Source: Patiria pectinifera (Eukaryota; Echinodermata; Asteroidea; Valvatida; Asterinidae). From it: a DNA stretch of 64,000 nucleotides. Shown here in pieces: positions 12,180-52,172 of the stretch (its first letter is position 1; each line of letters begins with the position of its first letter). The DNA lies in NCBI GenBank assembly GCA_029964075.1, contig CM057149.1, positions 14,708,197-14,772,196 on the forward strand, given 5' to 3'. The notes under the pieces were generated by a model that saw only the letters and a list, made by a program, of their open reading frames with translations, had not been told where the DNA came from and searched no databases. The translations under genes were made by a program, and so were the position numbers.

Positions 12180-12184
12180 CAGCC
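12180..12184. other. Left target-site duplication CAGCC
   Basis: CAGCC directly precedes the left inverted repeat and is matched by CAGCC at 51,306-51,310 directly after the right one. Confidence 0.65.
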
Positions 12185-12319
12185 TGCTACAACTGATAAT
12201 GTAGTAACCAATGGGTAATGCATCACTAACCGATTATGTCACAAAAATTAACCGATATTGTATCACTAACCGATAATGTAACTCATATTGACCGATAGTG
12301 TAATAAAATTTACTACACT
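12185..12319 (+). repeat. Left terminal inverted repeat (135 bp)
   Basis: Starts TGCTACAACTGATAATGTAG and aligns without gaps to the reverse complement of 51,171-51,305, with about 18 mismatches (87% identity). Inside are three imperfect copies of an ACCGATAATGTA-type motif. The adjoining inner sequence at 12,317 is already satellite-monomer DNA. Confidence 0.85.
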
Positions 12320-12412
12320 GTTGATTGATGCTCCTCTTGCCTTTTAAAGAATTTCTGCATAGTTTGAAGAAAATTCATTGTTTGGCCAAATTTCATCAAA
12401 AAAGTAAGGCTA
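12317..12412 (+). repeat. Diverged satellite monomer fragment at the left edge
   Basis: The stretch from GTTGATTGATGCTCCTCTTG to AAAAAGTAAGGCTAA is nearly identical to 50,776-50,873 in the right-hand diverged monomers and shares the GGCCAAATTT core of the main monomers. It begins exactly at the point of the monomer where the right-hand array stops (about 51,097). Confidence 0.85.
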
Positions 12413-13792
12413 ATAAACGGGATTCACAACTGTGACCTTATGCGCCGTGCGACCTGTTCACGACATAAAAAAGGGTATTATGAGGACCTATAGTTACATA
12501 TATGCTCGGTATTGCTCCCGGCCCGGTGCATGGAAAAACGTGCCCAATCATCATTATTTTATGCAGCAGCGCAGCCTGAGCTGTTATATGGCTGTATGCC
12601 AGGGCGTACGTGGAGAGCCGTGGACTATTGATAGACAAGATCATGGAAAAACCATGTTTTACGCCTGTTCTGCAACTTCTTCGTAATTCGGGCAACTTGA
12701 AAGGCAGATGGCTTCACCAAGGTAAGAAGCAAACAGTTTTTGGTCTAAAAATATTCAAACTAAGGAAAAAAATATGAAAACTAGAGGTTGTGGTTGTGAA
12801 CAACCACAGAGCTGTTCCCAGTTTTGATTCTCTATTGGACCGTAAACAAAATGATTTAATGATTAACAAAAAATGAGTGTAATAAATTGAAATTATTAAA
12901 AGATTCCACTTCCGGTACAACCTTTTAAATATTCATGACGTCATAGCATAACAATAATTATGTGCACAGTCATAATAATTCAATATAATTATCTGTCAAT
13001 ATAGCTTTGTATTAATGTGAAATTTCAACCTGATCAGATTAATAATTCATGAAATATGCTTTAAGGGTCTGCCATCACCACTTCCGGTAAAACCGGAAGT
13101 GAAGGTCACATGACCTTGACATATAAATTTTCATCTATAACACATCCCTGTCTCTATACCTACTGAATTTAAGATCAATCGGTCAAATAGTTCCATAGTT
13201 ATAAGACTGTAAAGAGTGTCTCATTAAATATTCATGACTTCCGGTCTGATGACGTCATACACCTTAAACTTCGCACACGTCTTAAGTGGGTCAAGGTCAT
13301 CATATACACCAATAATTAGGCCATTCCGACAAACTTCGCCACAGACATCTATTCAAAAAACATTTTTGAAAATTTTGAAACTGTCGCTAGAGGGCGCTCG
13401 AAGATTGCATGACGTCATCGGTAGATGACTTGAAAAATACTATCAGCCAAGAGACTAACATCGTTGAAAGCAAGTTCATATCTATAACCACTTTCAAATA
13501 ATAAGCCACTTCCGGTTTGGGCTTTTTTCGACCGGAAGCAAGGGTCACGTGATTTCACGCACACTGAATGAAATAAAGACCTCAACCTACTCTACCACTT
13601 GCCGGCAACAGAATGCTGCGGACGCGTACGGTTGATTTCTTCTGCATTTTTTAATATTAAAAGTGTCACTATTCAATTGCCTATAAATAAACACCGGATG
13701 ACGTCATCATGACGTCATCACTACACAATGTTGTTTGAGTAAGGGTCTTTGCTTGGACAAAGATTGGTGTAAATGAATTACTGGCAAAGAGC
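12413..13792. other. Left-arm segment rich in CRE and ETS-type sites
   Basis: This is single-copy within the window. It contains five perfect TGACGTCA palindromes (12,936; 13,250; 13,410; 13,699; 13,710) and five to six CTTCCGG or CCGGAAG cores (12,910; 13,081; 13,094; 13,237; 13,509; 13,532). Two cores form a perfect hairpin at 13,079-13,101 (CACTTCCGGT, AAA, ACCGGAAGTG). Another small hairpin, GTGGTTGT/ACAACCAC, lies near 12,790. No ORF of note. It could be regulatory, or a further repeat family inserted between the edge monomer and the array. Confidence 0.5.
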
Positions 13793-16214
13793 TGACCAAA
13801 TACAAAGAGTAGAAGTCAGGCGCGGATCAAGACGGGGTCGAAACCACCCCCTCCCCCTGGTCTGACACACACGAAAAATGCCTGTCCGCCTGTCGGCAGC
13901 AATCGGATAAAAATATTCCTGGTCCGCCCCAGAACGCACATGATGCATTTTACAAAAAACAAATCCGTAAAACAAATTTGTTTATTTTTTTTTAAAGACA
14001 TCCGTCTAATGTTGACTTCTCTTTCGCCCATGGAGCTAGCTAAAACAGATGCACACAGCAATGTTCAATGTTTCTCTGCATATTCATACGAATCGTTTTT
14101 AAGCAGAATTCTAAGAAAGCCGAATGGCCAAGTGGTTAGATTCGTCGTCTACAAATCGCGGGTCCCGGGTTCGAATCCCGTCGATGTGCTTTTGCTTTTC
14201 AACGCACGCATTCAGTCATTATAAGATGTTTAATTTCCCGTCTTAAAACACCAACAGTACCTTAGCTTAATCGGTAAGCACTGCTGCTGGTACTGTCCGC
14301 GAATTCCAGGTTGGCGTCTTCGTACAGGTTCAGGGCATGTGGTCCACTCGGAGGATCAGGGCTTAGGGTGCCGCCCTGTTCCTCCCTTAGCTCTTTGCTT
14401 TTACATGGCGCCTGGCCCTCGGGTTACATGGATGGACAGGGAAGGAAGTGTGTATTGGCTGGGAACGCCGAGATCCCGGAAGAGTCCTAGGGGATCGGCT
14501 GGGGCATTGTTATGGCTCAGACCGATCCCTGAATGCTTAGCTAGCACATAACTTTTTGATTTTTTTTTAAGCCTCTATTTTTTAAGCTTTGGTTTCGTTT
14601 GACATTTAAATCTGCTCGGCAGGTCTCCGGTAGTATTAAAAACAAAACAACGATCTATGTCATAAATCGATGAATATTTAATAATTGACTATAATCAAAA
14701 TTAAGTCAAAATTGGTCACAAATGTTAGGCTCACCCCTTGTATTTTTTCAATTTTGGCCAAAAAATGAAATTCCTTAAAACTTCCAAGAAAGATGCCTGA
14801 GGTACCCCCGAACACATTTCAATTCGATTTGGGAACAAATGTGCATTTGAAAAGAAAATTTTGCCGAAATCGGGCGTAAAAACAGTTGAAAGTTGGCTTT
14901 TTATTTACATGTATTTCCTACCCCGAAATGGATGATTTTTGCCAAAATCTGTCAAAATGTGGGTGTTTGAATATTGATTTATGCCCAACTAGTCTCCAGA
15001 GGTTTTTCTGCGTTGTTTGCAGAAAAGTCAATTTTTGGCCAAATTTGGTTAAAAATGTAAGGCTAACCCCTTGTATTTTTTTTTTCAATTTTGGTCAAAA
15101 AATGAAATTCCTTAAAACTTCCGAGAAAGATGCCTAAGGTATCCCGGAACACTTTCTAATTCGATTTGGGAACAAATGTGCCTTTGAAAAAGAAAATTTT
15201 GCCGAAATCTGGGGTAAAAACAGTTGAAATTTGGCTTATTATTTACATGTATTTCCTACATCAAAATGGATGATTTGTTCCAAAATCTGCCAAAATGTGG
15301 GTGTTTCAATATTGATTCATGCTCCACTCGTCTCCAGAGGTATTTCTGACTCGCTTGGAGAAAAGTCAATTTTGGCCAAATTTGGTTAAAAATGTAAGGC
15401 TAACCCCTTGTATTTTTTTTTTTTCAATTTTGGTCAAAAAATGAAATTCGTGAAAACTTCCAAGAAAGATGCCTAAGGTACCCTGGAACACTTTCTAATT
15501 CGATTTGGGAACAAATGTGCCTTTGAAAAAAAAAATTGGCCGACATTTGGGGTAAAAACAGTTGAAATTTGGCTTTTTATTTACATGTATTTCCTACCAC
15601 AAAATGGATGATTTTTGCCAAAATCTGCCAAAATGTGGGTGTTTGAATATTGATTTATGCTCAACTCGTCTCCGGAGGTATTTCTGCGTTGTTTGCAGAA
15701 AAGTCAATTTTTGGCCAAATTTGGTTAAAAATGTAAGGCTAACCCCTGATTTTTTTTTTCAATTTTGGCCAAAAAATGAAATTCCTTAAAACTTCCAAGA
15801 AAGATGCCTAAGGTACCCCGAAACACATTTCAATTCGATTTGGGAACAAATGTGCATTTGAAAAATAAAATTTTGCCGAAATCGGGCGTAAAAACAGTTG
15901 AAAGTTGGCTTTTTATTTACATGTATTTCCTACCCTAAAATGGATGATTTTTGCCAAAATCTGTCAAAATGGGGGTGTTTGAATATTGATTTATGCTCAA
16001 CTCGTCTCCAGAGGTTTTTCTGCGTTGTTTGCAGAAAAGTTAATTTTTGGCCAAATTTGGTTAAAAATGTAAGTCTAACCCCTTGCATTTTTTTTTCAAG
16101 TTTGGCCCAAAAAAATGAAATTCCTTAAAACTTCTAAGAAAGATGCCTAAGGTAACCCTGGACACATTCCAATTCCATTTGGGAACAAATGTGCCTTTGA
16201 AAAGAAAAAAAAAA
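13793..16214 (+). repeat. Higher-order satellite unit 1 (U truncated on the left, 4 monomers)
   Basis: The match to the other units starts abruptly at CTGACCAAATACAAAGAG (13,793), so the first half of U is absent. The remaining U runs to about 14,700, followed by a half monomer and four full monomers of about 337 bp with starts (AAAACAGTTGAAA) near 14,879, 15,217, 15,555 and 15,889. The monomer has conserved blocks TTTACATGTATTTCCTAC, AATATTGAT and TTTGGCCAAATTTGGTTAAA. Confidence 0.95.
14119..14325 (+). other. Paired tRNA-like (A-box/B-box) elements inside U
   Basis: Element one (14,119-14,189) has an A box TGGCCAAGTGGTTAG and a perfect B box GGTTCGAATCC, 43 bp apart as in tRNAs, but its ends cannot form an acceptor stem. 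Element two (14,254-14,325) has an A box TAGCTTAATCGG with a well-paired D stem (GCTT/AAGC) but no good B box; it leads into a conserved body with a GGGATCGG/CCGATCCC stem. Both look like heads of tRNA-derived SINEs carried by the satellite rather than genuine tRNA genes. Pol III transcription is possible but not shown. The pair recurs in units 2 to 8. Confidence 0.6.
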
Positions 16215-19200
16215 CGCCCATGGACGCGCGAAGCAAATTGGGGCCTGCGACAAAATCGGTCCGTCGAAAAAGCGTGTCACGTCCGTCAGTCGGCAGTGAT
16301 GAAGAGCGCCACCTACTGTCCCAGAGTTATGTCCGCTTTTAAGGTTGCAGACCAGTAAATAAGCTGCCATATACCCCAATAATAAATGCCCCCTCTTCAG
16401 AAATTCAGAAAAAATACTCACAACTCTCTCTGGTATTTGAAACTCACATTCAATTAAAGCGTATTTCCATCCGAAGATGATCACCCTTTAAAATAGTCCT
16501 GAAACCCGCAGCCATTTTGTAAAACGAGGCCTACACTCCATTGCAAAGTAGTGCGCTTTTAGGGCTCAAATTTCATCCAAATTGCATAGAACTAGAAGCT
16601 TACAGTCCTGTGCAAGGCTTCCACTCATATTTGTTACAAACCCTCAAGTACATGGCCCACAGTATGCTCAAATACCGAAGAATTTGAGGGCATGCAAATC
16701 GTGATTTGGCCAGCGTAGCAAATTTTGGAACGATTTTCAAATTTTGAAATTTTTCGGAAATGAAATTCCGAAAAATTTGCCGTCGCTATACTTAACAAAC
16801 ATTCGTAAAACAAACTAGTTCATTTTTTAAAGGCGTCCGTATATTAAATGTTGAAATAGCAGTGACGGGGTTCAGAATCCGTATCTGACCAAATACAAAG
16901 AGTAGAAGCAAGGCGAGGATCAAGACGGGGTAGAAACAAAACACTACCATGGTCTGACACACACGAAAAATGCCAGTCCGCCTGTCGGCAGCAATCGGAT
17001 AAAAATATTCCTGGTCCGCCCCAGAACGCACATGATGCATTTTACAAAAAACAAATCCGTAAAACAAATTTGTTTATCTTTTTTAAAGACATCCGTCTAA
17101 TGTTGACTTCTCTTTCGTCCATGGAGCTAGCTAAAACAGATGCACACAGCAATGTTCAATGTTTCTCTGCATATTCATACGAATCGTTTTTAAGCAGAAT
17201 TCTAAGAAAGCCGAATGGCCAAGTGGTTAGATTCGTCGTCTACAAATCGCGGGTCCCGGGTTCGAATCCCGTCGATGTGCTTTTGCTTTTCAACGCACGC
17301 ATTCAGTCATTATAAGATGTTTAATTTCCCGTCTTAAAACACCAACGGTACCTTAGCTTAATCGGTAAGCACTGCTGCTGGTACTGTCCGCGAATTCCAG
17401 GTTGGCGTCTTCGTACAGGTTCAGGGCATGTGGTCCACTCGGAGGATCAGGGCTTAGGGTGCCGCCCTGTTCCTCCCTTAGCTCTTTGCTTTTACATGGC
17501 GCCTGGCCCTCGGGTTACATGGATGGACAGGGAAGGAAGTGTGTATTGGCTGGGAACGCCGAGATCCCGGAAGAGTCCTAGGGGATCGGCTGGGGCATTG
17601 TTATGGCTCAGACCGATCCCTGAATGCTTAGCTAGCACATAACTTTTTGATTTTTTTTTAAGCCTCTATTTTTTAAGCTTTGGTTTCGTTTGACATTTAA
17701 ATCTGCTCGGCAGGTCTCCGGTAGTATTAAAAACAAAACAACGATCTATGTCATAAATCGATGAATATTTAATAATTGACTATAATCAAAATTAAGTCAA
17801 AATTGGTCACAAATGTTAGGCTCACCCCTTGTATTTTTTCAATTTTGGCCAAAAAATGAAATTCCTTAAAACTTCCAAGAAAGATGCCTAAGGTACCCCC
17901 GAACACATTCCAATTCAATTTGGGAACAAATGTGCCTTTGAAAAAAAATTTGGCCGACATTTGGGGTAAAAACAGTTGAAATTTGGCTTTTTATTTACAT
18001 GTATTTCCTACCCCAAAATGGATGATTTTTGCCGAAATCTGCCAAAATGTGGGTGTTTGAATATTGATTTATGCTCAACTCGTCTCCAGAGGTATTTCTG
18101 CGTTGCTTGGAGAAAAGTCAATTTGTGGCCAAATTTGGTTAAAAATGTAAGGCTAACCCCTGATTTTTTTTTTTTCATTTTTGGCCAAAAAATGAAATTC
18201 CTTAAAACTTCCAAGAAAGATGCCTGAGGTACCCCCGAACACATTTCAATTCGATTTGGGAACAAATGTGCATTTGAAAAGAAAATTTTGCCGAAATCGG
18301 GCGTAAAAACAGTTGAAAGTTGGCTTTTTATTTACATGTGTTTCCTACCCCGAAATGGATGATTTTTGCCAAAATCTGTCAAAATGTGGGTGTTTGAATA
18401 TTGATTTATGCTCAACTCGTCTCCAGAGGTTTTTCTGCGTTGTTTGCAGAAAAGTCAATTTGTGGCCAAATTTGGTTAAAAATGTAAGGCTAACCCCTTG
18501 TATTTTTTTTTTCAATTTTGGTCAAAAAATGAAATTCCTTAAAACTTCCGAGAAAGATGCCTAAGGTATCCCGGAACACTTTCTAATTCGATTTGGGAAC
18601 AAATGTGCCTTTGAAAAAGAAAATTTTGCCGAAATCTGGGGTAAAAACAGTTGAAATTTGGCTTATTATTTACATGTATTTCCTACATCAAAATGGATGA
18701 TTTGTTCCAAAATCTGCCAAAATGTGGGTGTTTCAATATTGATTCATGCTCCACTCGTCTCCAGAGGTATTTCTGACTCGCTTGGAGAAAAGTCAATTTT
18801 GGCCAAATTTGGTTAAAAATGTAAGGCTAACCCCTTGTATTTTTTTTTTTTCAATTTTGGTCAAAAAATGAAATTCCTGAAAACTTCCAAGAAAGATGCC
18901 TAAGGTACCCTGGAACACTTTCTAATTCGATTTGGGAACAAATGTGCCTTTGAAAAAAAAAATTGGCCGACATTTGGGGTAAAAACAGTTGAAATTTGGC
19001 TTTTTATTTACATGTATTTCCTACCCCAAAATGGATGATTTTTGCCAAAATCTGCCAAAATGTGGGTGTTTGAATATTGATTTATGCTCAACTCGTCTCC
19101 GGAGGTATTTCTGCGTTGTTTGCAGAAAAGTAAATTTTTGGCCAAATTTGGTTAAAAATGTAAGGCTAACCCCTGATTTTTTTTTTTCAATTTTGGCCAA

Positions 19201-19642
19201 AAAATGAAATTCCTTAAAACTTCCAAGAAAGATGCCTAAGGTACCCCCAAACACATTTCAATTCGATTTGGGAACAAATGTGCATTTGAAAAATAAAATT
19301 TTGCCGAAATCGGGCGTAAAAACAGTTGAAAGTTGGCTTTTTATTTACATGTATTTCCTACCCTAAAATGGATGATTTTTGCCAAAATCTGTCAAAATGG
19401 GGGTGTTTGAATATTGATTTATGCTCAACTCGTCTCCAGAGGTTTTTCTGCGTTGTTTGCAGAAAAGTTAATTTTTGGCCAAATTTGGTTAAAAATGTAA
19501 GTCTAACCCCTTGCATTTTTTTTTCAAGTTTGGCCCAAAAAAATGAAATTCCTTAAAACTTCTAAGAAAGATGCCTAAGGTAACCCTGGACACATTCCAA
19601 TTCCATTTGGGAACAAATGTGCCTTTGAAAAGAAAAAAAAAA
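16215..19642 (+). repeat. Higher-order satellite unit 2 (full U, 5 monomers, 3.43 kb)
   Basis: First complete U (16,215 to about 17,795). It contains the UBA1-3'UTR-like stretches (16,343-16,480 and 16,634-16,732), a perfect 13-bp hairpin (16,747-16,778, loop ATGAAA), a roughly 48-bp direct duplication (16,801-16,852 against 17,058-17,105) and the tRNA-like pair at 17,210-17,416. Monomers start near 17,969, 18,307, 18,644, 18,982 and 19,319. The extra monomer relative to unit 1 is the first one. Confidence 0.95.
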
Positions 19643-22600
19643 CGCCCATGGACGCGCGAAGCAAATTGGGGCCTGCGACAAAATCGGTCCGTCGAAAAAG
19701 CGTGTCACGTCCGTCAGTCGGCAGTGATGAAGAGCGCCACCTACTGTCCCAGAGTTATGTCCGCTTTTAAGGTTGCAGACCAGTAAATAAGCTGCCATAT
19801 ACCCCAATAATAAATGCCCCCTCTTCAGAAATTCAGAAAAAATACTCACAACTCTCTCTGGTATTTGAAACTCACATTCAATTAAAGCGTATTTCCATCC
19901 GAAGATGATCACCCTTTAAAATAGTCCTGAAACCCGCAGCCATTTTGTAAAACGAGGCCTACACTCCATTGCAAAGTAGTGCGCTTTTAGGGCTCAAATT
20001 TCATCCAAATTGCATAGAACTAGAAGCTTACAGTCCTGTGCAAGGCTTCCACTCATATTTGTTACAAACCCTCAAGTACATGGCCCACAGTATGCTCAAA
20101 TACCGAAGAATTTGAGGGCATGCAAATCGTGATTTGGCCAGCGTAGCAAATTTTGGAACGATTTTCAAATTTTGAAACTTTTCGGAAATGAAATTCCGAA
20201 AAATTTGCCGTCGCTATACTTAACAAACATTCGTAAAACAAACTAGTTCATTTTTTAAAGGCGTCCGTATATTAAATGTTGAAATAGCAGTGACGGGGTT
20301 CAGAATCCGTATCTGACCAAATACAAAGAGTAGAAGTCAGGCGCGGATCAAGACGGGGTCGAAACCACCCCCTCCCCTGGTCTGACACACACGAAAAATG
20401 CCAGTCCGCCTGTCGGCAGCAATCGGATAAAAATATTCCTGGTCCGCCCCAGAACGCACATGATGCATTTTACAAAAAACAAATCCGTAAAACAAATTTG
20501 TTTATCTTTTTTAAAGACATCCGTCTAATGTTGACTTCTCTTTCGTCCATGGAGCTAGCTAAAACAGATGCACACAGCAATGTTCAATGTTTCTCTGCAT
20601 ATTCATACGAATCGTTTTTAAGCAGAATTCTAAGAAAGCCGAATGGCCAAGTGGTTAGATTCGTCGTCTACAAATCGCGGGTCCCGGGTTCGAATCCCGT
20701 CGATGTGCTTTTGCTTTTCAACGCACGCATTCAGTCATTATAAGATGTTTAATTTCCCGTCTTAAAACACCAACGGTACCTTAGCTTAATCGGTAAGCAC
20801 TGCTGCTGGTACTGTCCGCGAATTCCAGGTTGGCGTCTTCGTACAGGTTCAGGGCATGTGGTCCACTCGGAGGATCAGGGCTTAGGGTGCCGCCCTGTTC
20901 CTCCCTTAGCTCTTTGCTTTTACATGGCGCCTGGCCCTCGGGTTACATGGATGGACAGGGAAGGAAGTGTGTATTGGCTGGGAACGCCGAGATCCCGGAA
21001 GAGTCCTAGGGGATCGGCTGGGGCATTGTTATGGCTCAGACCGATCCCTGAATGCTTAGCTAGCACATAACTTTTTGATTTTTTTTTAAGCCTCTATTTT
21101 TTAAGCTTTGGTTTCGTTTGACATTTAAATCTGCTCGGCAGGTCTCCGGTAGTATTAAAAACAAAACAACGATCTATGTCATAAATCGATGAATATTTAA
21201 TAATTGACTATAATCAAAATTAAGTCAAAATTGGTCACAAATGTTAGGCTCACCCCTTGTATTTTTTCAATTTTGGCCAAAAAATGAAATTCCTTAAAAC
21301 TTCCAAGAAAGATGCCTAAGGTACCCCCGAACACATTCCAATTCAATTTGGGAACAAATGTGCCTTTGAAAAAAAATTTGGCCGACATTTGGGGTAAAAA
21401 CAGTTGAAATTTGGCTTTTTATTTACATGTATTTCCTACCCCAAAATGGATGATTTTTGCCGAAATCTGCCAAAATGTGGGTGTTTGAATATTGATTTAT
21501 GCTCAACTCGTCTCCAGAGGTATTTCTGCGTTGCTTGGAGAAAAGTCAATTTTTGGCCAACCCCTGATTTTTTTTTTTTTCATTTTTGGCCAAAAAATGA
21601 AATTCCTTAAAACTTCCAAGAAAGATGCCTGAGGTACCCCCGAACACATTTCAATTCGATTTGGGAACAAATGTGCATTTGAAAAGAAAATTTTGCCGAA
21701 ATCGGGCGTAAAAACAGTTGAAAGTTGGCTTTTTATTTACATGTGTTTCCTACCCCGAAATGGATGATTTTTGCCAAAATCTGTCAAAATGTGGGTGTTT
21801 GAATATTGATTTATGCTCAACTCGTCTCCAGAGGTTTTTCTGCGTTGTTTGCAGAAAAGTCAATTTTTGGCCAAATTTGGTTAAAAATGTAAGGCTAACC
21901 CCTTGTATTTTTTTTTTCAATTTTGGTCAAAAAATGAAATTCCTTAAAACTTCCGAGAAAGATGCCTAAGGTATCCCGGAACACTTTCTAATTCGATTTG
22001 GGAACAAATGTGCCTTTGAAAAAGAAAATTTTGCCGAAATCTGGGGTAAAAACAGTTGAAATTTGGCTTATTATTTACATGTATTTCCTACATCAAAATG
22101 GATGATTTGTTCCAAAATCTGCCAAAATGTGGGTGTTTCAATATTGATTCATGCTCCACTCGTCTCCAGAGGTATTTCTGACTCGCTTGGAGAAAAGTCA
22201 ATTTTGGCCAAATTTGGTTAAAAATGTAAGGCTAACCCCTTGCATTTTTTTCAATTTTGGCCAAAAAATGAAATTCCTTGAAACTTGCAGGAAAGATGCC
22301 TAAGGTAACCCTGAACACTTTCTAATTCGATTTGGGAACAAATGTGCCTTTGAAAAAGAAAATTTTGCCGAAATCTGGGGTAAAAACAGTTGAAATTTGG
22401 CTTATTATTTACATGTATTTCCTACATCAAAATGGATGATTTGTTCCAAAATCTGCCAAAATGTGGGTGTTTCAATATTGATTCATGCTCCACTCGTCTC
22501 CAGAGGTATTTCTGACTCGCTTGGAGAAAAGTCAATTTTGGCCAAATTTGGTTAAAAATGTAAGGCTAATCCCTTGTATTTTTTTTTTTTTTCAATTTTG

Positions 22601-24067
22601 GTCAAAAAATGAAATTCCTGAAAACTTCCAAGAAAGATGCCTAAGGTACCCCCGGAACACTTTCTAATTCGATTTGGGAACAAATGTGCCTTTGAAAAAG
22701 AAAAGTTTGCCGAAATCTGGGGTAAAAACAGTTGAAATTTGGCTTATTATTTACATGTATTTCCTACATCAAAATGGATGATTTGTTCCAAAATCTGCCA
22801 AAATGTGGGTGTTTCAATATTGATTCATGCTCCACTCGTCTCCAGAGGTATTTCTGACTCGCTTGGAGAAAAGTCAATTTTGGCCAAATTTGGTTAAAAA
22901 TGTAAGGCTAATCCCTTGTATTTTTTTTTTTTTCAATTTTGGTCAAAAAATGAAATTCCTGAAAACTTCCAAGAAAGATGCCTAAGGTACCCTGGAACAC
23001 TTTCTAATTCGATTTGGGAACAAATGTGCCTTTGAAAAAGAAAATTTTGCCGAAATCTGGGGTAAAAACAGTTGAAATTTGGCTTATTATTTACATGTAT
23101 TTCCTACATCAAAATGGATGATTTGTTCCAAAATCTGCCAAAATGTGGGTGTTTCAATATTGATTCATGCTCCACTCGTCTCCAGAGGTATTTCTGACTC
23201 GCTTGGAGAAAAGTCAATTTTGGCCAAATTTGGTTAAAAATGTAAGGCTAATCCCTTGTATTTTTTTTTTTTTTCAATTTTGGTCAAAAAATGAAATTCC
23301 TGAAAACTTCCAAGAAAGATGCCTAAGGTACCCTGGAACACTTTCTAATTCGATTTGGGAACAAATGTGCCTTTGAAAAAAAATTGGCCGACATTTGGGG
23401 TAAAAACAGTTGAAATTTGGCTTTTTATTTACACGTATTTCCTACCCCAAAATGGATGATTTTTGCCAAAATCTGCCAAAATGTGGGTGTTTCAATATTG
23501 ATTCATGCTCCACTCGTCTCCGGAGGTATTTCTGCGTTGTTTGGAGAAAAGTCAATTTTTGGCCAAATTTGGTTAAAAATGTAAGGCTAATCCCTTGTAT
23601 TTTTTTTTTTTTCAATTTTGGTCAAAAAATGAAATTCCTGAAAACTTCCAAGAAAGATGCCTAAGGTACCCCCGGAACACTTTCTAATTCGATTTGGGAA
23701 CAAATGTGCATTTGAAAAATAAAATTTTGCCGAAATCGGGCGTAAAAACAGTTGAAAGTTGGCTTTTTATTTACATGTATTTCCTACCCTAAAATGGATG
23801 ATTTTTGCCAAAATCTGTCAAAATGGGGGTGTTTGAATATTGATTTATGCTCAACTCGTCTCCAGAGGTTTTTCTGCGTTGTTTGCAGAAAAGTTAATTT
23901 TTGGCCAAATTTGGTTAAAAATGTAAGTCTAACCCCTTGCATTTTTTTTTCAAGTTTGGCCCAAAAAAATGAAATTCCTTAAAACTTCTAAGAAAGATGC
24001 CTAAGGTAACCCTGGACACATTCCAATTCCATTTGGGAACAAATGTGCCTTTGAAAAGAAAAAAAAA
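19643..24067 (+). repeat. Higher-order satellite unit 3 (8 monomers, 4.4 kb)
   Basis: tRNA-like pair at 20,638-20,844. Monomers start near 21,397, 21,711, 22,050, 22,382, 22,725, 23,066, 23,402 and 23,745. The first lacks about 23 bp around TTGGTTAAAAATG. The gain over unit 2 comes from repeated type-B monomers (TTGGCTTATTATTTAC, ATGGATGATTTGTTCC, TCTGACTCGCTTGGAG). The hairpin in U carries one T-to-C change. Confidence 0.95.
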
Positions 24068-39379: not shown

Positions 39380-42300
39380 CGCCCATGGACGCGCGAAGCA
39401 AATTGGGGCCTGCGACAAAATCGGTCCGTCGAAAAAGCGTGTCACGTCCGTCAGTCGGCAGTGATGAAGAGCGCCACCTACTGTCCCAGAGTTATGTCCG
39501 CTTTTAAGGTTGCAGACCAGTAAATAAGCTGCCATATACCCCAATAATAAATGCCCCCTCTTCAGAAAAAATACTCACAACTCTCTCTGGTATTTGAAAC
39601 TCACATTCAATTAAAGCGTATTTCCATCCGAAGATGATCACCCTTTAAAGTAGTCCTGAAACCCGCAGCCATTTTGTAAAACGAGGCCTACACTCCATTG
39701 CAAAGTAGTGCGCTTTTAGGGCTCAAATTTCATCCAAATTGCATAGAACTAGAAGCTTACAGTCCTGTGCAAGGCTTCCACTCATATTTGTTACAAACCC
39801 TCAAGTACATGGCCCACAGTATGCTCAAATACCGAAGAATTTGAGGGCATGCAAATCGTGATTTGGCCAGCGTAGCAAATTTTGGAACGATTTTCAAATT
39901 TTGAAATTTTTCGGAAATGAAATTCCGAAAAATTTGCCGTCGCTATACTTAACAAACATTCGTAAAACAAACTAGTTCATTTTTAAAGGCGTCCGTATAT
40001 TAAATGTTGAAATAGCAGTGACGGGGTTCAGAATCAGTATCTGACCAAATACAAAGAGTAGAAACCATGCACGAATAAAGAAAGGGTCGAAACCTCCCCC
40101 CCCCCCTGGTCTGACACACACGAAAAATGCCTGTCCGCCTGTCGGCAGCAATCGGATAAAAATATTCCTGGTCCGCCCCAGAACGCACATGATGCATTTT
40201 ACAAAAAACAAATCCGTAAAACAAATTTGTTTATCTTTTTTAAAGACATCCGTCTAATGTTGACTTCTCTTTCGTCCATGGAGCTAGCTAAACAGATGCA
40301 CACAGCAATGTTCAATGTTTCTCTGCATATTCATACGAATCGTTTTTAAGCGGAATTCTAAGAAAGCCGAATGGCCAAGTGGTTAGATTCGTCGTCTACA
40401 AATCGCGGGTCCCGGGTTCGAATCCCGTCGATGTGCTTTTGCTTTTCAACGCACGCATTCAGTCATTATAAGATGTTTAATTTCCCGTCTTAAAACACCA
40501 ACGGTACCTTAGCTTAATCGGTAAGCACTGCTGCTGGTACTGTCCGCGAATTCCAGGTTGGCGTCTTCGTACAGGTTCAGGGCATGTGGTCCACTCGGAG
40601 GATCAGGGCTTAGGGTGCCGCCCTGTTCCTCCCTTAGCTCTTTGCTTTTACATGGCGCCTGGCCCTCGGGTTACATGGATGGACAGGGAAGGAAGTGTGT
40701 ATTGGCTGGGAACGCCGAGATCCCGGAAGAGTCCTAGGGATCGGCTGGGGCATTGTTATGGCTCAGACCGATCCCTGAATGCTTAGCTAGCACATAACTT
40801 TTGATTTTTTTAAGCCTCTATTTTTAAGCTTTGGTTTCCTTTGACATTTAAATCTGCTCGGCAGGTCTCCGGTAGTATTAAAACAAAACAACGATCTATG
40901 TCATAAATCGATGAATATTTAATAATTGACTATAATCAAAATTAAGTCAAAATTGGTCACAAATGTTAGGCTCACCCCTTGTATTTTTTCAATTTTGGCC
41001 AAACAATGAAATTCCTTAAAACTTCCAAGAAAGATGCCTAAGGTACCCCCGAACACATTCCAATTCAATTTGGGAACAAATGTGCCTTTGAAAAAAAATT
41101 TGGCCGACATTTGGGGTAAAAACAGTTGAAATTTGGCTTTTTATTTACATGTATTTCCTACCCCAAAATGGATGATTTTTGCCGAAATCTGCCAAAATGT
41201 GGGTGTTTGAATATTGATTTATGCTCAACTCGTCTCCAGAGGTATTTCTGCGTTGCTTGGAGAAAAGTCAATTTTTGGCCAAATTTGGTTAAAAATGTAA
41301 GGCTAACCCCTGATTTTTTTTTTTTTCATTTTTGGCCAAAAAATGAAATTCCTTAAAACTTCCAAGAAAGATGCCTGAGGTACCCCCGAACACATTTCAA
41401 TTCGATTTGGGAACAAATGTGCATTTGAAAATAAAATTTTGCCGAAATCGGGCGTAAAAACAGTTGAAAGTTGGCTTTTTATTTACATGTGTTTCCTACC
41501 CCGAAATGGATGATTTTTGCCAAAATCTGTCAAAATGTGGGTGTTTGAATATTGATTTATGCTCAACTCGTCTCCAGAGGTTTTTCTGCGTTGTTTGCAG
41601 AAAAGTCAATTTTTGGCCAAATTTGGTTAAAAATGTAAGGCTAACCCCTTGTATTTTTTTTTTCAATTTTGGTCAAAAAATGAAATTCCTTAAAACTTCC
41701 GAGAAAGATGCCTAAGGTATCCCGGAACACTTTCTAATTCGATTTGGGAACAAATGTGCCTTTGAAAAAGAAAATTTTGCCGAAATCTGGGGTAAAAACA
41801 GTTGAAATTTGGCTTATTATTTACATGTATTTCCTACATCAAAATGGATGATTTGTTCCAAAATCTGCCAAAATGTGGGTGTTTCAATATTGATTCATGC
41901 TCCACTCGTCTCCAGAGGTATTTCTGACTCGCTTGGAGAAAAGTCAATTTTGGCCAAATTTGGTTAAAAATGTAAGGCTAATCCCTTGTATTTTTTTTTT
42001 TTTCAATTTTGGTCAAAAAATGAAATTCCTGAAAACTTCCAAGAAAGATGCCTAAGGTACCCCCGGAACACTTTCTAATTCGATTTGGGAACAAATGTGC
42101 CTTTGAAAAAGAAAATTTTGCCGAAATCTGGGGTAAAAACAGTTGAAATTTGGCTTATTATTTACATGTATTTCCTACATCAAAATGGATGATTTGTTCC
42201 AAAATCTGCCAAAATGTGGGTGTTTCAATATTGATTCATGCTCCACTCGTCTCCAGAGGTATTTCTGACTCGCTTGGAGAAAAGTCAATTTTGGCCAAAT

Positions 42301-44485
42301 TTGGTTAAAAATGTAAGGCTAATCCCTTGTATTTTTTTTTTCAATTTTGGCCAAAAATGAAATTGCTTGAAACTTCCAAGAAAGATGCCTAAGGTACCCC
42401 CGGAACACTTTCTAATTCGATTTGGGAACAAATGTGCCTTTGAAAAAGAAAATTTTGCCGAAATCTGGGGTAAAAACAGTTGAAATTTGGCTTATTATTT
42501 ACATGTATTTCCTACATCAAAATGGATGATTTGTTCCAAAATCTGCCAAAATGTGGGTGTTTCAATATTGATTCATGCTCCACTCGTCTCCAGAGGTATT
42601 TCTGACTCGCTTGGAGAAAAGTCAATTTTGGCCAAATTTGGTTAAAAATGTAAGGCTAATCCCTTGTATTTTTTTTTTTTTCAATTTTGGTCAAAAAATG
42701 AAATTCCTGAAAACTTCCAAGAAAGATGCCTAAGGTACCCTGGAACACTTTCTAATTCGATTTGGGAACAAATGTGCCTTTGAAAAAAAATTGGCCGACA
42801 TTTGGGGTAAAAACAGTTGAAATTTGGCTTTTTATTTACACGTATTTCCTACCCCAAAATGGATGATTTTTGCCAAAATCTGCCAAAATGTGGGTGTTTC
42901 AATATTGATTCATGCTCCACTCGTCTCCGGAGGTATTTCTGCGTTGTTTGGAGAAAAGTCAATTTTTGGCCAAATTTGGTTAAAAATGTAAGGCTAATCC
43001 CTTGTATTTTTTTTTTTTTCAATTTTGGTCAAAAAATGAAATTCCTGAAAACTTCCAAGAAAGATGCCTAAGGTACCCCCGGAACACTTTCTAATTCGAT
43101 TTGGGAACAAATGTGCCTTTCAAAAAGAAAATTTTGCCGAAATCTGGGGTAAAAACAGTTGAAATTTGGCTTATTATTTACATGTATTTCCTACATCAAA
43201 ATGGATGATTTGTTCCAAAATCTGCCAAAATGTGGGTGTTTCAATATTGATTCATGCTCCACTCGTCTCCAGAGGTATTTCTGACTCGCTTGGAGAAAAG
43301 TCAATTTTGGCCAAATTTGGTTAAAAATGTAAGGCTAATCCCTTGTATTTTTTTTTTTTTCAATTTTGGTCAAAAAATGAAATTCCTGAAAACTTCCAAG
43401 AAAGATGCCTAAGGTACCCCCGGAACACTTTCTATTTCGATTTGGGAACAAATGTGCCTTTGAAAAAGAAAATTTTGCCGAAATCTGGGGTAAAAACAGT
43501 TGAAATTTGGCTTATTATTTACATGTATTTCCTACATCAAAATGGATGATTTGTTCCAAAATCTGCCAAAATGTGGGTGTTTCAATATTGATTCATGCTC
43601 CACTCGTCTCCAGAGGTATTTCTGACTCGCTTGGAGAAAAGTCAATTTTGGCCAAATTTGGTTAAAAATGTAAGGCTAATCCCTTGTATTTTTTTTTTTT
43701 TTCAATTTTGGTCAAAAAATGAAATTCCTGAAAACTTCCAAGAAAGATGCCTAAGGTACCCTGGAACACTTTCTAATTCGATTTGGGAACAAATGTGCCT
43801 TTGAAAAAAAAATTGGCCGACATTTGGGGTAAAAACAGTTGAAATTTGGCTTTTTATTTACATGTATTTCCTACCCCAAAATGGATGATTTTTGCCAAAA
43901 TCTGCCAAAATGTGGGTGTTTGAATATTGATTCATGCTCAACTCGTCTCCGGAGGTATTTCTGCGTTGTTTGGAGAAAAGTCAATTTTTGGCCAAATTTG
44001 GTTAAAAATGTAAGGCTAACCCCTGATATTTTTTTTTTCAATTTTGGCCAAAAAATGAAATTCCTTAAAACTTCCAAGAAAGATGCCTAAGGTACCCCCA
44101 AACACATTTCAATTCGATTTGGGAACAAATGTGCATTTGAAAAATAAAATTTTGCCGAAATCGGGCGTAAAAACAGTTGAAAGTTGGCTTTTTATTTACA
44201 TGTATTTCCTACCCTAAAATGGATGATTTTTGCCAAAATCTGTCAAAATGGGGGTGTTTGAATATTGATTTATGCTCAACTCGTCTCCAGAGGTTTTTCT
44301 GCGTTGTTTGCAGAAAAGTTAATTTTTGGCCAAATTTGGTTAAAAATGTAAGTCTAACCCCTTGCATTTTTTTCAAGTTTGGCCCAAAAATGAAATTCCT
44401 TAAAACTTCTAAGAAAGATGCTTAAGGTAACCATGGACACATTCCAATTGCATTTGGGCACAAATGTGACTTTGAAAAGAAAAAA
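39380..44485 (+). repeat. Higher-order satellite unit 7 (10 monomers)
   Basis: tRNA-like pair at 40,366-40,572. U has a short variant stretch at about 40,060-40,105. Monomers start near 41,119, 41,456, 41,793, 42,133, 42,475, 42,810, 43,152, 43,495, 43,832 and 44,170. Confidence 0.95.
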
Positions 44486-47400
44486 CGCCCATGGACGCGC
44501 GAAGCAAATTGGGGCCTGCGACAAAATCGGTCCGTCGAAAAGCGTGTCACGTCCGTCAGTCGGCAGTGATGAAGAGCGCCACCTACTGTCCCAGAGTTAT
44601 GTCCGCTTTTAAGGTTGCAGACCAGTAAATAAGCTGCCATATACCCCAATAATAAATACCCCCTCTTCAGAAAAATACTCACAACTCTCTCTGGTATTTG
44701 AAACTCACATTCAATTAAAGCGTATTTCCATCCGAAGATGATCACCCTTTAAAGTAGTCCTGAAACCCGCAGCCATTTTGTAAAACGAGGCCTACACTCC
44801 ATTGCAAAGTAGTGCGCTTTTAGGGCTCAAATTTCATCCAAATTGCATAGAACTAGAAGCTTACAGTCCTGTGCAAGGCTTCCACTCATATTTGTTACAA
44901 ACCCTCAAGTACATGGCCCACAGTATGCTCAAATACCGAAGAATTTGAGGGCATGCAAATCGTGATTTGGCCAGCGTAGCAAATTTTGGAACGATTTTCA
45001 AATTTTGAAATTTTTCGGAAATGAAATTCCGAAAAATTTGCCGTCGCTATACTTAACAAACATTCGTAAAACAAACTAGTTCATTTTTTAAAGGCGTCCG
45101 TATATTAAATGTTGAAATAGCAGTGACGGGGTTCAGAATCCGTATCTGACCAAATACAAAGAGTAGAAGTCAGGCGCGGATCAAGACGGGGTCGAAACCA
45201 CCCCTCCCCTGGTCTGACACACACGAAAATGCCTGTCCGCCTGTCGGCAGCAATCGGATAAAAATATTCCTGGTCCGCCCCAGAACGCACATGATGCATT
45301 TTACAAAAACAAATCCGTAAAACAAATTTGTTTATCTTTTTTAAAGACATCCGTCTAATGTTGACTTCTCTTTCGTCCATGGAGCTAGCTAAACAGATGC
45401 ACACAGCAATGTTCAATGTTTCTCTGCATATTCATACGAATCGTTTTTAAGCGGAATTCTAAGAAAGCCGAATGGCCAAGTGGTTAGATTCGTCGTCTAC
45501 AAATCGCGGGTCCCGGGTTCGAATCCCGTCGATGTGCTTTTGCTTTTCAACGCACGCATTCAGTCATTATAAGATGTTTAATTTCCCGTCTTAAAACACC
45601 AACGGTACCTTAGCTTAATCGGTAAGCACTGCTGCTGGTACTGTCCGCGAATTCCAGGTTGGCGTCTTCGTACAGGTTCAGGGCATGTGGTCCACTCGGA
45701 GGATCAGGGCTTAGGGTGCCGCCCTGTTCCTCCCTTAGCTCTTTGCTTTTACATGGCGCCTGGCCCTCGGGTTACATGGATGGACAGGGAAGGAAGTGTG
45801 TATTGGCTGGGAACGCCGAGATCCCGGAAGAGTCCTAGGGGATCGGCTGGGGCATTGTTATGGCTCAGACCGATCCCTGAATGCTTAGCTAGCACATAAC
45901 TTTTTGATTTTTTTTTAAGCCTCTATTTTTTAAGCTTTGGTTTCCTTTGACATTTAAATCTGCTCGGCAGGTCTCCGGTAGTATTAAAAACAAAACAACG
46001 ATCTATGTCATAAATCGATGAATATTTAATAATTGACTATAATCAAAATTAAGTCAAAATTGGTCACAAATGTTAGGCTCACCCCTTGTATTTTTTCAAT
46101 TTTGGCCAAACAATGAAATTCCTTAAAACTTCCAAGAAAGATGCCTAAGGTACCCCCGAACACATTCCAATTCAATTTGGGAACAAATGTGCCTTTGAAA
46201 AAAAATTTGGCCGACATTTGGGGTAAAAACAGTTGAAATTTGGCTTTTTATTTACATGTATTTCCTACCCCAAAATGGATGATTTTTGCCGAAATCTGCC
46301 AAAATGTGGGTGTTTGAATATTGATTTATGCTCAACTCGTCTCCAGAGGTATTTCTGCGTTGCTTGGAGAAAAGTCAATTTTTGGCCAAATTTGGTTAAA
46401 AATGTAAGGCTAACCCCTGATTTTTTTTTTTTTCATTTTTGGCCAAAAAATGAAATTCCTTAAAACTTCCAAGAAAGATGCCTGAGGTACCCCCGAACAC
46501 ATTTCAATTCGATTTGGGAACAAATGTGCATTTGAAAATAAAATTTTGCCGAAATCGGGCGTAAAAACAGTTGAAAGTTGGCTTTTTATTTACATGTGTT
46601 TCCTACCCCGAAATGGATGATTTTTGCCAAAATCTGTCAAAATGTGGGTGTTTGAATATTGATTTATGCTCAACTCGTCTCCAGAGGTTTTTCTGCGTTG
46701 TTTGCAGAAAAGTCAATTTTTGGCCAAATTTGGTTAAAAATGTAAGGCTAACCCCTTGTATTTTTTTTTTCAATTTTGGTCAAAAAATGAAATTCCTTAA
46801 AACTTCCGAGAAAGATGCCTAAGGTATCCCGGAACACTTTCTAATTCGATTTGGGAACAAATGTGCCTTTGAAAAGATAATTTAGCCGAAAATCTGGGGT
46901 AAAAACAGTTGAAATTTGGCTTATTATTTACATGTATTTCCTACATCAAAATGGATGATTTGTTCCAAAATCTGCCAAAATGTGGGTGTTTCAATATTGA
47001 TTCATGCTCCACTCGTCTCCAGAGGTATTTCTGACTCGCTTGGAGAAAAGTCAATTTTGGCCAAATTTGGTTAAAAATGTAAGGCTAACCCCTTGCATTT
47101 TTTTTTCAATTTTGGTCAAAAAATGAAATTCCTGAAAACTTCCAAGAAAGATGCCTAAGGTACCCCCGGAACACTTTCTAATTCGATTTGGGAACAAATG
47201 TGCCTTTGAAAAAGAAAATTTTGCCGAAATCTGGGGTAAAAACAGTTGAAATTTGGCTTATTATTTACATGTATTTCCTACATCAAAATGGATGATTTGT
47301 TCCAAAATCTGCCAAAATGTGGGTGTTTCAATATTGATTCATGCTCCACTCGTCTCCAGAGGTATTTCTGACTCGCTTGGAGAAAAGTCAATTTTGGCCA

Positions 47401-49574
47401 AATTTGGTTAAAAATGTAAGGCTAATCCCTTGTATTTTTTTTTTTCAATTTTGGTCAAAAATGAAATTCCTGAAAACTTCCAAGAAAGATGCCTAAGGTA
47501 CCCCGGAACACTTTCTAATTCGATTTGGGAACAAATGTGCCATTGAAAAGAAATTTTGCCGAAATCTGGGGTAAAAACAGTTGAAATTTGGCTTATTATT
47601 TACATGTATTTCCTACATCAAAATGGATGATTTGTTCCAAAATCTGCCAAAATGTGGGTGTTTCAATATTGATTCATGCTCCACTCGTCTCCAGAGGTAT
47701 TTCTGACTCGCTTGGAGAAAAGTCAATTTTGGCCAAATTTGGTTAAAAATGTAAGGCTAAAACCTTGTATTTTTTTTTTTCAATTTTGGTCAAAAATGAA
47801 ATTCTGAAAACTTCCAAGAAAGATGCCTAAGGTACCCTGGAACACTTTCTAATTCGATTTGGGAACAAATGTGCCTTTGAAAAAAATTGGCCGACATTTG
47901 GGGTAAAAACAGTTGAAATTTGGCTTTTATTTACACGTATTTCCTACCCCAAAATGGATGATTTTTGCCAAAATCTGCCAAAATGTGGGTGTTTCAATAT
48001 TGATTCATGCTCCACTCGTCTCCGGAGGTATTTCTGCGTTGTTTGGAGAAAAGTCAATTTTTGGCCAAATTTGGTTAAAAATGTAAGGCTAACCCCTTGT
48101 ATTTTTTTTGTCAATTTTGGTCAAAAAATGAAATTCCTTAAAACTTCCGAGAAAGATGCCTAAGGTATCCCGGAACACTTTCTTATTCGATTTGGGAACA
48201 AATGTGCCTTTGAAAAAGAAAAGTTTGCCGAAATCTGGGGTAAAAACAGTTGAAATTTGGCTTATTATTTACATGTATTTCCTACATCAAAATGGATGAT
48301 TTGTTCCAAAATCTGCCAAAATGTGGGTGTTTCAATATTGATTCATGCTCCACTCGTCTCCAGAGGTATTTCTGACTCGCTTGGAGAAAAGTCAATTTTG
48401 GCCAAATTTGGTTAAAAATGTAAGGCTAATCCCTTGTATTTTTTTTTTTTCAATTTTGGTCAAAAAATGAAATTCCTGAAAACTTCCAAGAAAGATGCCT
48501 AAGGTACCCCCGGAACACTTTCTATTTCGATTTGGGAACAAATGTGCCTTTGAAAAAGAAAATTTTGCCGAAATCTGGGGTAAAAACAGTTGAAATTTGG
48601 CTTATTATTTACATGTATTTCCTACATCAAAATGGATGATTTGTTCCAAAATCTGCCAAAATGTGGGTGTTTCAATATTGATTCATGCTCCACTCGTCTC
48701 CAGAGGTATTTCTGACTCGCTTGGAGAAAAGTCAATTTTGGCCAAATTTGGTTAAAAATGTAAGGCTAATCCCTTGTATTTTTTTTTTTTTTCAATTTTG
48801 GTCAAAAAATGAAATTCCTGAAAACTTCCAAGAAAGATGCCTAAGGTACCCTGGAACACTTTCTAATTCGATTTGGGAACAAATGTGCCTTTGTAAAAAA
48901 AATTGGCCGACATTTGGGGTAAAAACAGTTGAAATTTGGCTTTTTATTTACATGTATTTCTTACCCCAAAATGGATGATTTTTGCCAAAATCTGCCAAAA
49001 TGTGGGTGTTTGAATATTGATTGATGCTCAACTCGTCTCCGGAGGTATTTCTGCGTTGTTTGGAGAAAAGTCAATTTTTGGCCAAATTTGGTTAAAAATG
49101 TAAGGCTAACCCCTGATATTTTTTTTTTCAATTTTGGCCAAAAAATGAAATTGCTCCAAACTTTCTGGAAAGATGCCTAAGGTAACCCTGAACACATTTC
49201 AATTCGATTTGGGAACAAATGTGCATTTGAAAAATAAAATTTTGCCGAAATCGGGCGTAAAAACAGTTGAAAGTTGGCTTTTTATTTACATGTATTTCCT
49301 ACCCTAAAATGGATGATTTTTGCCAAAATCTGTCAAAATGGGGGTGTTTGAATATTGATTTATGCTCAACTCGTCTCCAGAGGTTTTTCTGCGTTGTTTG
49401 CAGAAAAGTTAATTTTTGGCCAAATTTGGTTAAAAATGTAAGTCTAACCCCTTGCATTTTTTTCAAGTTTGGCCCAAAAATGAAATTCCTTAAAACTTCT
49501 AAGAAAGATGCCGAAGGCAACCCTGAACACATTCCAAATCCATTTGGGATCAAATGTGCACTTGAAAAAAAAAA
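44486..49574 (+). repeat. Higher-order satellite unit 8 (10 monomers)
   Basis: tRNA-like pair at 45,467-45,673. Monomers start near 46,226, 46,564, 46,903, 47,236, 47,573, 47,908, 48,242, 48,585, 48,922 and 49,260. The end of the ninth monomer (49,150-49,195) uses the variant TTGCTCCAAACTTTCTGG, closer to the diverged right-edge monomers. Confidence 0.95.
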
Positions 49575-51097
49575 CTTAGCGACGTTGGACGCACGAAGCA
49601 AATTGGGGCCTGCGACAAAATCGGTCCGTCGAAAAAGCGTGTCACGTCCGTCAGTCGGCAGTGATGAAGAGCGCCACCTACTGTCCCAGAGTTATGTCCG
49701 CTTTTAAGGTTGCAGACCAGTAAATAAGCTGCCATATACCCCAATAATAAATGCCCCCTCTTCAGAAAAAATACTCACAACTCTCTCTGGTATTTGAAAC
49801 TCACATTCAATTAAAGCGTATTTCCATCCGAAGATGATCACCCTTTAAAGTAGTCCTGAAACCCGCAGCCATTTTGTAAAACGAGGCCTACACTCCATTG
49901 CAAAGTAGTGCGCTTTTAGGGCTCAAATTTCATCCAAATTGCATAGAACTAGAAGCTTACAGTCCTGTGCAAGGCTTCCACTCATATTTGTTACAAACCC
50001 TCAAGTACATGGCCCACAGTATGCTCAAATACCGAAGAATTTGAGGGCATGCAAATCGTGATTTGGCCAGCGTAGCAAATTTTGGAACGATTTTCAAATT
50101 TTGAAATTTTTCGGAAATGAAATTCCGAAAAATTTGCCGTCGCTATACTTAACAAACATTCGTAAAACAAACTAGTTCATTTTTTAAAGGCGTCCGTATA
50201 TTAAATGTTGAAATAGCAGTGACGGGGTTCAGAATCCGTATCTGACCAAATACAAAGAGTAGAAGTCAGGCGCGGATCAAGACGGGGTCGAAACCACCCC
50301 CTCCCCCTGGTCTGCATGACACACACGAAAAATGCCTGTCCGCCTGTCGGCAGCAATCGGATAACTTTTTGATTTTTTTTTAAGCCTCTATTTTTTTAAG
50401 CTTTGGTTTCGTTTGACATTTAAATCTGCTCGGCAGGTCTCCGGTAGTATTAAAAACAAAACAACGATCTATGTCATAAATCGATGAATATTTAATAATT
50501 GACTATAATCAAAATTAAGTCAAAATTGGTCACAAATGTTAGGCTCACCCCTTGTATTTTTTAAATTGTGTCCAAAAAATGAAATGGCTTGAAACTTGCC
50601 GGAAAGATGCCTTAAGGACCATAGAACACATTCCGATTCGATTTCTGGACACATGTGCTTTTCAAAATAAAATTTCCGAAAATTTGGGGTGAAATCAGTC
50701 AAAATTAATGATTTGTTTTTCCTATAAATGTCGATGATTTTTGCCCAATTCGTCAATATATTTGGTGTTTGAATGTTGATTGATGCTCCTCTTGCCTTTT
50801 TAAGAATTTCTGCATAGTTTGAAGAAAATTCATTTTTTGGCCAAATTTCATCAAAAAAGTAAGGCTTACCCCTTGTATTTTTTTTTAAATTTTGGCCAAA
50901 AAATGAAATGGCTTGAAATTGCTGGAAAGATGCCTAAAGGACCATAAAACACATTCCGATTCGTTTTCTGGACACATGTGCTTTTCAAAATAAAATTGCC
51001 GAAAATTTGGGGTGAAATCAGTCAAAATTAATGATTTGTTTTCCTCTAAATGTTGATGATTTTTGCCCCAATCGTCAATATATTTGGTGTTTGAATA
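49575..51097 (+). repeat. Satellite unit 9: U with internal deletion, then diverged monomers
   Basis: U starts normally but jumps at 50,363 from CAGCAATCGGATAA to CTTTTTGATT. This removes about 640 bp including both tRNA-like elements, and the joint lies at a shared ATAA. From about 50,520 there are two and a half monomers with a shorter period of about 321 bp and clear divergence (CATTCCGATTCGATTTCTGG, GATTGATGCTCCTCTTG). They end at GGTGTTTGAAT next to the right TIR region. They look like the oldest monomers of the array. Confidence 0.9.
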
Positions 51098-51170
51098 CCA
51101 ATACCGGTTAATTGTTGTTACATTATCGGAAGTAACCGATAATGTCACAGCAATTGACTGATACTATGAT

Positions 51171-51305
51171 AGTGTAGTAACATTGCCTACACTATCACTC
51201 AATGTTTGTTACATTATCGGTTAGTGATACAATATCGGTTAATTTTTGTGACATCATCGGTTGGTGATACATTATCCGTTGGTTACTACATTAGCAGATG
51301 TAACA
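51171..51305 (-). repeat. Right terminal inverted repeat (135 bp)
   Basis: The reverse complement starts TGTTACATCTGCTAATGTAG and pairs with 12,185-12,319. Inward of it, at 51,105-51,170, lies a further small palindrome (TTACATTATCGG / CCGATAATGT) built from the same motif, which has no left counterpart. Confidence 0.85.
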
Positions 51306-51310
51306 CAGCC
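51306..51310. other. Right target-site duplication CAGCC
   Basis: Copy of 12,180-12,184, directly after the terminal CA of the right inverted repeat. Confidence 0.65.
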
Positions 51311-52172
51311 TTTCTGGTTGAGAAAAAAAAATAAACTAAAGTTGCAAAATGTACGCATTTTACAACATTTTTCATAACCAGGATAATTTTATGGATGAAA
51401 TTGAAGCCTGTATGAAACATCAATTCAAATTGTTAAGTATCGCGGGTTTGCTCAGTGAAGAGCCAGTTAGTTATTTTTACATTTGTTAACTTTTACAATG
51501 TATTTACATTTTGCATCATATTTTTTAAAAAATTGGTGTGGTCCTCAAAAGTACCGGTCAACTTTTATCCTGAACACGCAACCGTGTTGGATACTGGAGT
51601 CTTGCAAAAGACGTAGTGTGACATTGGTTGTGTTGCGTGTGCCTAACTGAAGATAATTAAGAAAGTGACAAGTCACGTGTCAGAATCCACATAAAAAAAA
51701 GGGACCAATTTTTTTCAATGGAGTCAAAATTGCATATGAATATTTTAATAGCTCTGCACAAAATCAAGTGAGATTCTTATTCAAGGGGTAGGTCAACCAA
51801 TTTTTCCATTTGAAAAAGTAATAATTAGGAAATAATTATAATTCAACAACAGATGTAACAACAAAAACTCAATTTATACATCGTACATAGTGCAGTGACA
51901 GTTAAATGTAAATTTTTCTTCAGATTTTCAACAAAATCTTCCAAAACTGTACATTATGTGTGAAATTGAACATATTTACATTTTTTTTTAATCTCGCAAT
52001 GGGTGACACACTTGAACACACACTTCAGGTTATTTTCTCAAAAACCTAAAGGCGACTTCAGAAGGTGATTGTTGCCATTTCTTTCCATTGTGTCCCCGGA
52101 ACAGAAAATCAGTAGCCTTAAAATCCTGTTAAAGCAAACTAAAATGAATTAAAAATTAATCAACAAATCTCA
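51311..52172 (-). other. FBXO7 3' flank, nothing further recognised
   Basis: AT-rich DNA downstream of the FBXO7 stop. There is no canonical AATAAA on the minus strand; ATTAAA variants occur near 51,738 and 51,984 and may serve as the poly(A) signal. No other gene or repeat is seen. Confidence 0.5.

Follow-up and report, generated by a model that had tools for sequence, protein, structure and literature searches.

A 39-kb satellite block bounded like a single transposon in the sea star Patiria pectinifera, probably inflated after insertion

A 39-kb satellite block lies between the UBA1 gene and an F-box gene of Patiria pectinifera, in a stretch of 64,000 nucleotides that is free of any N and is called the window below. 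We consider it very likely that the block is one terminal inverted repeat (TIR) element, and probable that this was a non-autonomous element inflated by recombination mainly after its insertion, a history that takes the larger share of our confidence in a single element. Arguments on how transposons give rise to satellites often start from arrays that no longer have their transposon ends. Loss of those ends is the last step of one model of satellite origin, as given in the part of PMC12628747 cited here. The present locus keeps both ends with a flank duplication, and also the founding type of monomer beside a higher-order array that is young; with these parts preserved in one place, the order of events becomes readable and testable.

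The exons of UBA1 (ubiquitin-activating enzyme E1) are on the + strand and end near 8283, with matches to Pfam E1_UFD (8.5e-18 and 1.8e-12) and to UBA1 in PDB (1e-23). On the - strand, an exon at 53778-53957 matches Pfam F-box-like (1.3e-10). Judged by eye, this gene presumably resembles FBXO7, which the searches do not bear out, since the exon matches 23 PDB sequences and FBXO7 is none of them; two ORFs taken as further exons of the F-box gene (57447-58058 and 60483-60665) gave no Pfam match. Once the block is subtracted, the UBA1 stop codon and the F-box exon are about 6.4 kb apart, and it is in this interval that 39 kb of satellite is lodged. Other repeats in the window include 23-bp-period minisatellites on either side of the last UBA1 exon (7042-7535 and 9276-9831), about 69-71% reverse complements of one another, and a pair of 105-bp inverted repeats at 2028-2591 (2028-2132 / 2591-2487, 94%), likely a small TIR element. 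An array of a ~21-bp near-palindrome, TAATTCGTGCGAACGAATTAG, occupies 62558-62920, and for this reason 62659-62919 also matches 62923-62684 in reverse (81%).

The ends of the block comprise the following features.

12180-12184, + strand: candidate target-site duplication (TSD) CAGCC, outside the symmetric TIR; the full 10-mer AACACAGCCT is at 12176-12185
12185-12319, + strand: left TIR, 135 bp, with ~20-bp subrepeats (ACTAACCGATAATGTAAC-like)
51098-51170, no strand: inner stretch of 73 bp, extra TIR subrepeats in both orientations, without counterpart on the left side
51171-51305, - strand: right TIR
51306-51310, + strand: CAGCC, second candidate TSD copy; the full common 10-mer is at 51302-51311

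An earlier, sequence-only reading described the block as bounded like a single transposon, and its account of the ends was largely borne out. The two 135-bp inverted repeats, which it put at about 87%, align without gaps at 117 of 135 positions (12185-12319 against 51305-51171, E=1.4e-42), whereas random inverted pairs drawn from outside the block, at most 3,000 once draws that touched it had been discarded, reached 54/135 at best; the left arm begins TG and the right arm finishes CA, also as described. The same five bases, CAGCC, do flank both sides, but the flank in common is really 10 bp. Between random left-flank and right-flank positions, a 5-mer matches with a chance of 0.0013 (200,000 pairs), and a 10-mer coincidence occurred in 0 of 200,000 random flank pairs. 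Because the common flank extends to 10 bp, the TSD may be anything from 5 to 10 bp long. A 5-bp TSD leaves the TIR ends symmetric, TG...CA, and one of 8-10 bp offsets them, the left end gaining 2-4 bases; the empty site predicted is the same under either length, ...TCAAACACAGCCTTTCTGG... (...GTCAAACACAGCCTTTCTGG... in the UBA1/F-box interval). The arms differ by 13%, against 1% between the repeat units described below, from which it follows that the arms are either old or were unequal from the start.

Further backing for the single-transposon reading comes from monomers that are private to the two ends and stand there in complementary phase.

12319-12413, + strand: T0, the first ~95 bp of a terminal-type monomer, breaking off in a predicted hairpin loop
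50521-50774, + strand: T1, terminal-type monomer that starts at monomer position 66, as do the eight interior arrays
50775-51097, + strand: T2, complete terminal-type monomer of 323 bp, ending at the phase where T0 begins

T0 and T2, ~38 kb apart, are 96.8% identical over ~95 bp (97.8% over 93 bp by BLAST), and T1 and T2 are 92.1% identical; the best matches of T0, T1 and T2 among 59 interior monomers reach only 75.7-78.5%. This corrects the first reading, since terminal and interior monomers are not alike. We take the T monomers to be a separate lineage that the TIR element would own, with T0 assigned to it on ~95 bp, since independent decay of the edges would not make opposite edges alike. 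The left TIR joins T0 at the phase where T2 ends on the right, with an overlap of 1 bp, a closure with a chance of about 1%. On the simplest reading, the monomer may once have been the entire core of an ancestral TIR-core-TIR element.

Between the terminal monomers lie a segment of unexplained origin, X, and alternating copies of a spacer, S, and arrays, A, of another monomer type.

12414-13791, no strand: X, segment of unexplained origin, matched elsewhere in the window by nothing but short internal palindromes (E up to 1e-3)
13792-14706, + strand: S1, second part of spacer S, with ~640-bp insert
14707-16208, + strand: A1, ~4.4 interior-type monomers of ~338 bp
16209-17797, + strand: S2, spacer copy
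17798-19636, + strand: A2, array of ~5.4 monomers
19637-21225, + strand: S3, spacer copy
21226-24062, + strand: A3, array of ~8.4 monomers
24063-25639, + strand: S4, spacer copy, with ~640-bp insert at about 24849-25487
25640-29163, + strand: A4, array of ~10.4 monomers
29164-34269, + strand: S5 and A5, higher-order unit of 5.1 kb
34270-39373, + strand: S6 and A6, higher-order unit of 5.1 kb
39374-44483, + strand: S7 and A7, higher-order unit of 5.1 kb
44484-49580, + strand: S8 and A8, higher-order unit of 5.1 kb
49581-50520, + strand: S9, final copy of the spacer, lacking the ~640-bp insert and followed by T1 in place of an interior array

The nine higher-order units of 3-5 kb reported by the first reading correspond to nine spacer copies, but the interior arrays number only eight. 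All eight consist of ~338-bp monomers in + orientation, separated by a spacer of ~1.58 kb of which S1 and S9 are incomplete copies. Array lengths are graded, at about 4.4, 5.4 and 8.4 monomers followed by five arrays of about 10.4, and the spacer-to-spacer distances from S2 to S9 are 3.43, 4.43, 5.10, 5.11, 5.10, 5.11 and 5.10 kb. The five complete 5.1-kb units (H4-H8) are 0.81-1.38% apart at aligned positions, gaps left out, in all ten pairwise comparisons, and when 24 kb are compared with themselves at an offset of one unit, identity is 97.65% with gaps counted. Such low divergence among the five units means that their growth or homogenisation was recent. For the pairs listed, copies S2-S9 are separated in the first part of the spacer by 0-3 differences over ~640 bp, with more divergence in a short C-rich stretch of S2 and S7 (10-19 of ~120) and in the insert of S6 (9-12 of ~663).

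As expected of a higher-order satellite, same-position monomers are more alike than neighbours: in a set of 59 complete interior monomers, copies from positions 1, 2, 5, 6, 8 and 9 of the 10.4-mer unit find their best match mostly at the same position in another unit, a clear pattern, and positions 3, 4 and 7 are interchangeable between units. A1 is made up of monomer types 2-8-9 and A2 of types 1-2-8-9. Position-specific matching and these compositions together carry what reads in the monomer sequences as the mark of unequal exchange.

The joins between spacer and array bear on how the interior came to lie where it does. X and T0 precede S1, and T1 comes after S9. Each of the eight S-to-array joins has its first 42 bp in common with the S9-to-T1 join and goes over to the interior type beyond this, within the right arm of a hairpin predicted for the one T and the one interior segment folded (z -4.35 and -4.70). 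This clustering at the hairpin was noticed after the fact, and the array-to-spacer joins, near monomer position ~219 and outside the hairpin, count against a simple rule of joining at the hairpin. Spacer sequence hardly differs between the T and interior ends in spite of a monomer divergence of ~24%, and an extra step of recombination or conversion is therefore needed. A ~640-bp insert is present between ATAA repeats in S1-S8 and absent from S9. The S4 insert carries a tRNA-type T-arm (B box) sequence, CGGGTTCGAATCCCG, and may possibly be a tRNA-derived element; Rfam on S4 recovers no more than 15 nt of T-arm, with a score under the threshold of the family. S9 could represent the older state or a deletion at 4 bp of microhomology, and both readings stand because a 4-bp ATAA duplication looks the same as such a deletion. 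X itself contains several CACTTCCGG / GACGTCAT motifs as well as short palindromes, and the 7 ORFs scanned, out of 19 listed for it, gave no Pfam match.

Spacer S also matches sequence just behind UBA1 (8439-8758, 72-89% in pieces), and we considered whether it was captured locally from the host, which would favour growth in place. This was set aside, since the match begins at the end of an inverted repeat: a MITE-like element at 8442-8772, with a TIR of about GGTTGCARACYAGTAAATA starting at 8442 and, reversed, at 8772, is colinear with positions ~131-519 of the spacer. More simply, the two would be copies of a dispersed inverted-repeat element.

The earlier statement that the block holds no transposase is not contradicted by a Pfam search of 20 internal ORFs (19 of the 62 listed and one more), which returned 0 families at E up to 1. 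The block resembles a MITE in its inverted terminal repeats, its candidate TSD (CAGCC, up to 10 bp in common) and, for the 20 internal ORFs scanned, the absence of a transposase. Across the whole window, Rfam at gathering thresholds gave 0 hits, and ARAGORN with bacterial settings gave 0. Exact patterns of the TIR, the interior monomer and the terminal monomer were not found in viral contigs, nor that of the TIR in bacterial and archaeal contigs, and blastn of S4 with the start of A4 (24063-28000) found nothing among phages; these nulls are expected and say little about an animal sequence. When pieces of the TIR sequence were used as words to search the literature, all of the matches listed were unrelated by title.

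We propose that the block began as a small non-autonomous transposon consisting of a TIR, tandem core monomers of ~323 bp and a second TIR, which a transposase encoded elsewhere would have mobilised in trans. It would have inserted between the UBA1 and F-box genes with 5-10 bp of target duplicated, its core perhaps already a short tandem array of T monomers interrupted by X or spacer DNA. Later, a related satellite lineage of the interior type may have been placed, with spacer, between the outer T monomers by recombination, perhaps because an excised satellite circle integrated or through ectopic exchange, the breaks lying at the monomer hairpin. The layout of T and interior monomers could derive from a single exchange inside S, the partners being an X-S-T1 element and an S-interior repeat on a circle or at another locus; such an exchange would also account for the insert in S1-S8 and for its absence from S9. 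Unequal exchange would then have multiplied the spacer-plus-array unit to eight arrays. In favour of this history, the eight arrays are enclosed by nine spacers, beyond which come X at one outer edge and T1 at the opposite one. The window offers no means of dating the insertion relative to the amplification.

Cargo or inflation were the two alternatives first put forward, and inflation fits better. That the ~39-kb block moved whole and carried the satellite as its cargo is unlikely in our estimation. Very large DNA transposons exist, the evidence of TIRs, flanks and terminal monomers fits such a unit equally, and the window holds nothing that decides against it; but with interior units about 1% apart, thus young, and from a different subfamily than the TIR-linked monomers, a smaller element is indicated beneath the arrays and growth inside it is simpler. 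The empty exact-pattern scans for TIR and monomers stand formally on the same side, although in viral, bacterial and archaeal contigs they weigh little. A more elaborate version, which we regard as a long shot, is a satellite-loaded transposon still moving as a unit: the core of the TIR element would have become a monomer, and a diverged higher-order satellite (S with interior monomers) would then have been taken up by homologous integration, perhaps of an extrachromosomal circle. If true, a ready-made 39-kb satellite array can be carried to new places between genes.

It is distinctly improbable that the ends are two different copies of a TIR family which flank an independent satellite array and were joined by recombination or chance. 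The 13% difference between the arms would suit this, as would the lack on the left of the right side's 73-bp inner stretch, but the matching flanks, at the chance levels given above, the private T monomers common to both ends and the phase closure all argue for a single element. In satellite arrays the greatest divergence is commonly found in the monomers at the edges, and an ordinary array with decayed edges, its TIRs no more than old edge debris, would draw on this; we think it very improbable, because independent decay predicts T0 and T2 to be as distant from one another as each is from the interior, and they are nearly identical. Least probable of all is an assembly artefact, a wrong copy number or a false join: units about 1% apart may be mis-assembled in copy number, but the window contains no N, the units carry private differences and the array lengths are graded.

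The TG...CA ends and 5-bp flank suggested an assignment to Ginger/IS481EU. The cited parts of PMC2836005 and PMC10045372 give Ginger2/TDD elements TG...CA-type ends, TIRs of about 50-180 bp and TSDs of 4 or 5 bp, which the block's ends and 135-bp TIRs resemble; a length of 5 bp would by itself fit TDD-4/TDD-5. In the former source, Ginger1 and Ginger2 termini are TGTNR, with TSD targets CCGG/CCGT (Ginger1) and RTATAY (Ginger2). Here the right end, TGTTA, fits and the left end, TGCTA, fails, CAGCC matches neither target, no transposase was found in the ORFs scanned, and the assignment is not supported. The block also lacks the long, tandem-repeat-containing TIRs of foldback elements, having TIRs of 135 bp with ~20-bp subrepeats.

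A TIR unit holding nine higher-order units of 3-5 kb would be exceptional according to the first reading; a precedent exists in Tetris, a foldback element of Drosophila virilis with TIRs and no conserved ORFs. According to PMC4079207, tandem repeats of ~220 bp in its interior expanded to satellite arrays that reach 66 copies, fibre-FISH places long internal-repeat arrays between two terminal domains on DNA fibres, and its TSDs are 8-10 bp. On our reading the present block is likewise a TIR element with an internal repeat grown to satellite, and its 10-bp common flank allows a Tetris-type TSD. Unlike in Tetris, where the repeats are inside the TIRs, the 323-338-bp monomers here form the core between 135-bp TIRs, in one orientation, and they are arranged in spacer-based units of 3-5 kb, in two monomer lineages, near genes.

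In a limited search of the literature, including part of PMC12910113, we found no array of this size that has higher-order units and a spacer and is enclosed by intact TIRs with a flank duplication. MITEs of the clam Donax trunculus, reported by Satovic and Plohl in 2013 under a title naming tandem repeats, reportedly carry a central array, as the block does, but their arrays are said to be short. In the Xenopus MITEs Xstir and miDNA4, tandem repeats derive from or are carried in the interior, miDNA4 having one monomer or an array of variable length (PMC12628747, in the part describing them). The block resembles these, on that description, in bearing tandem repeats in the internal part of an element; it differs in that the accounts of Xstir and miDNA4 given there mention no higher-order units and state no array length. 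Satellite growth inside TIR elements has thus been described already, in Tetris, Xstir and miDNA4, and the Patiria block would be an unusually large and readable case of it.
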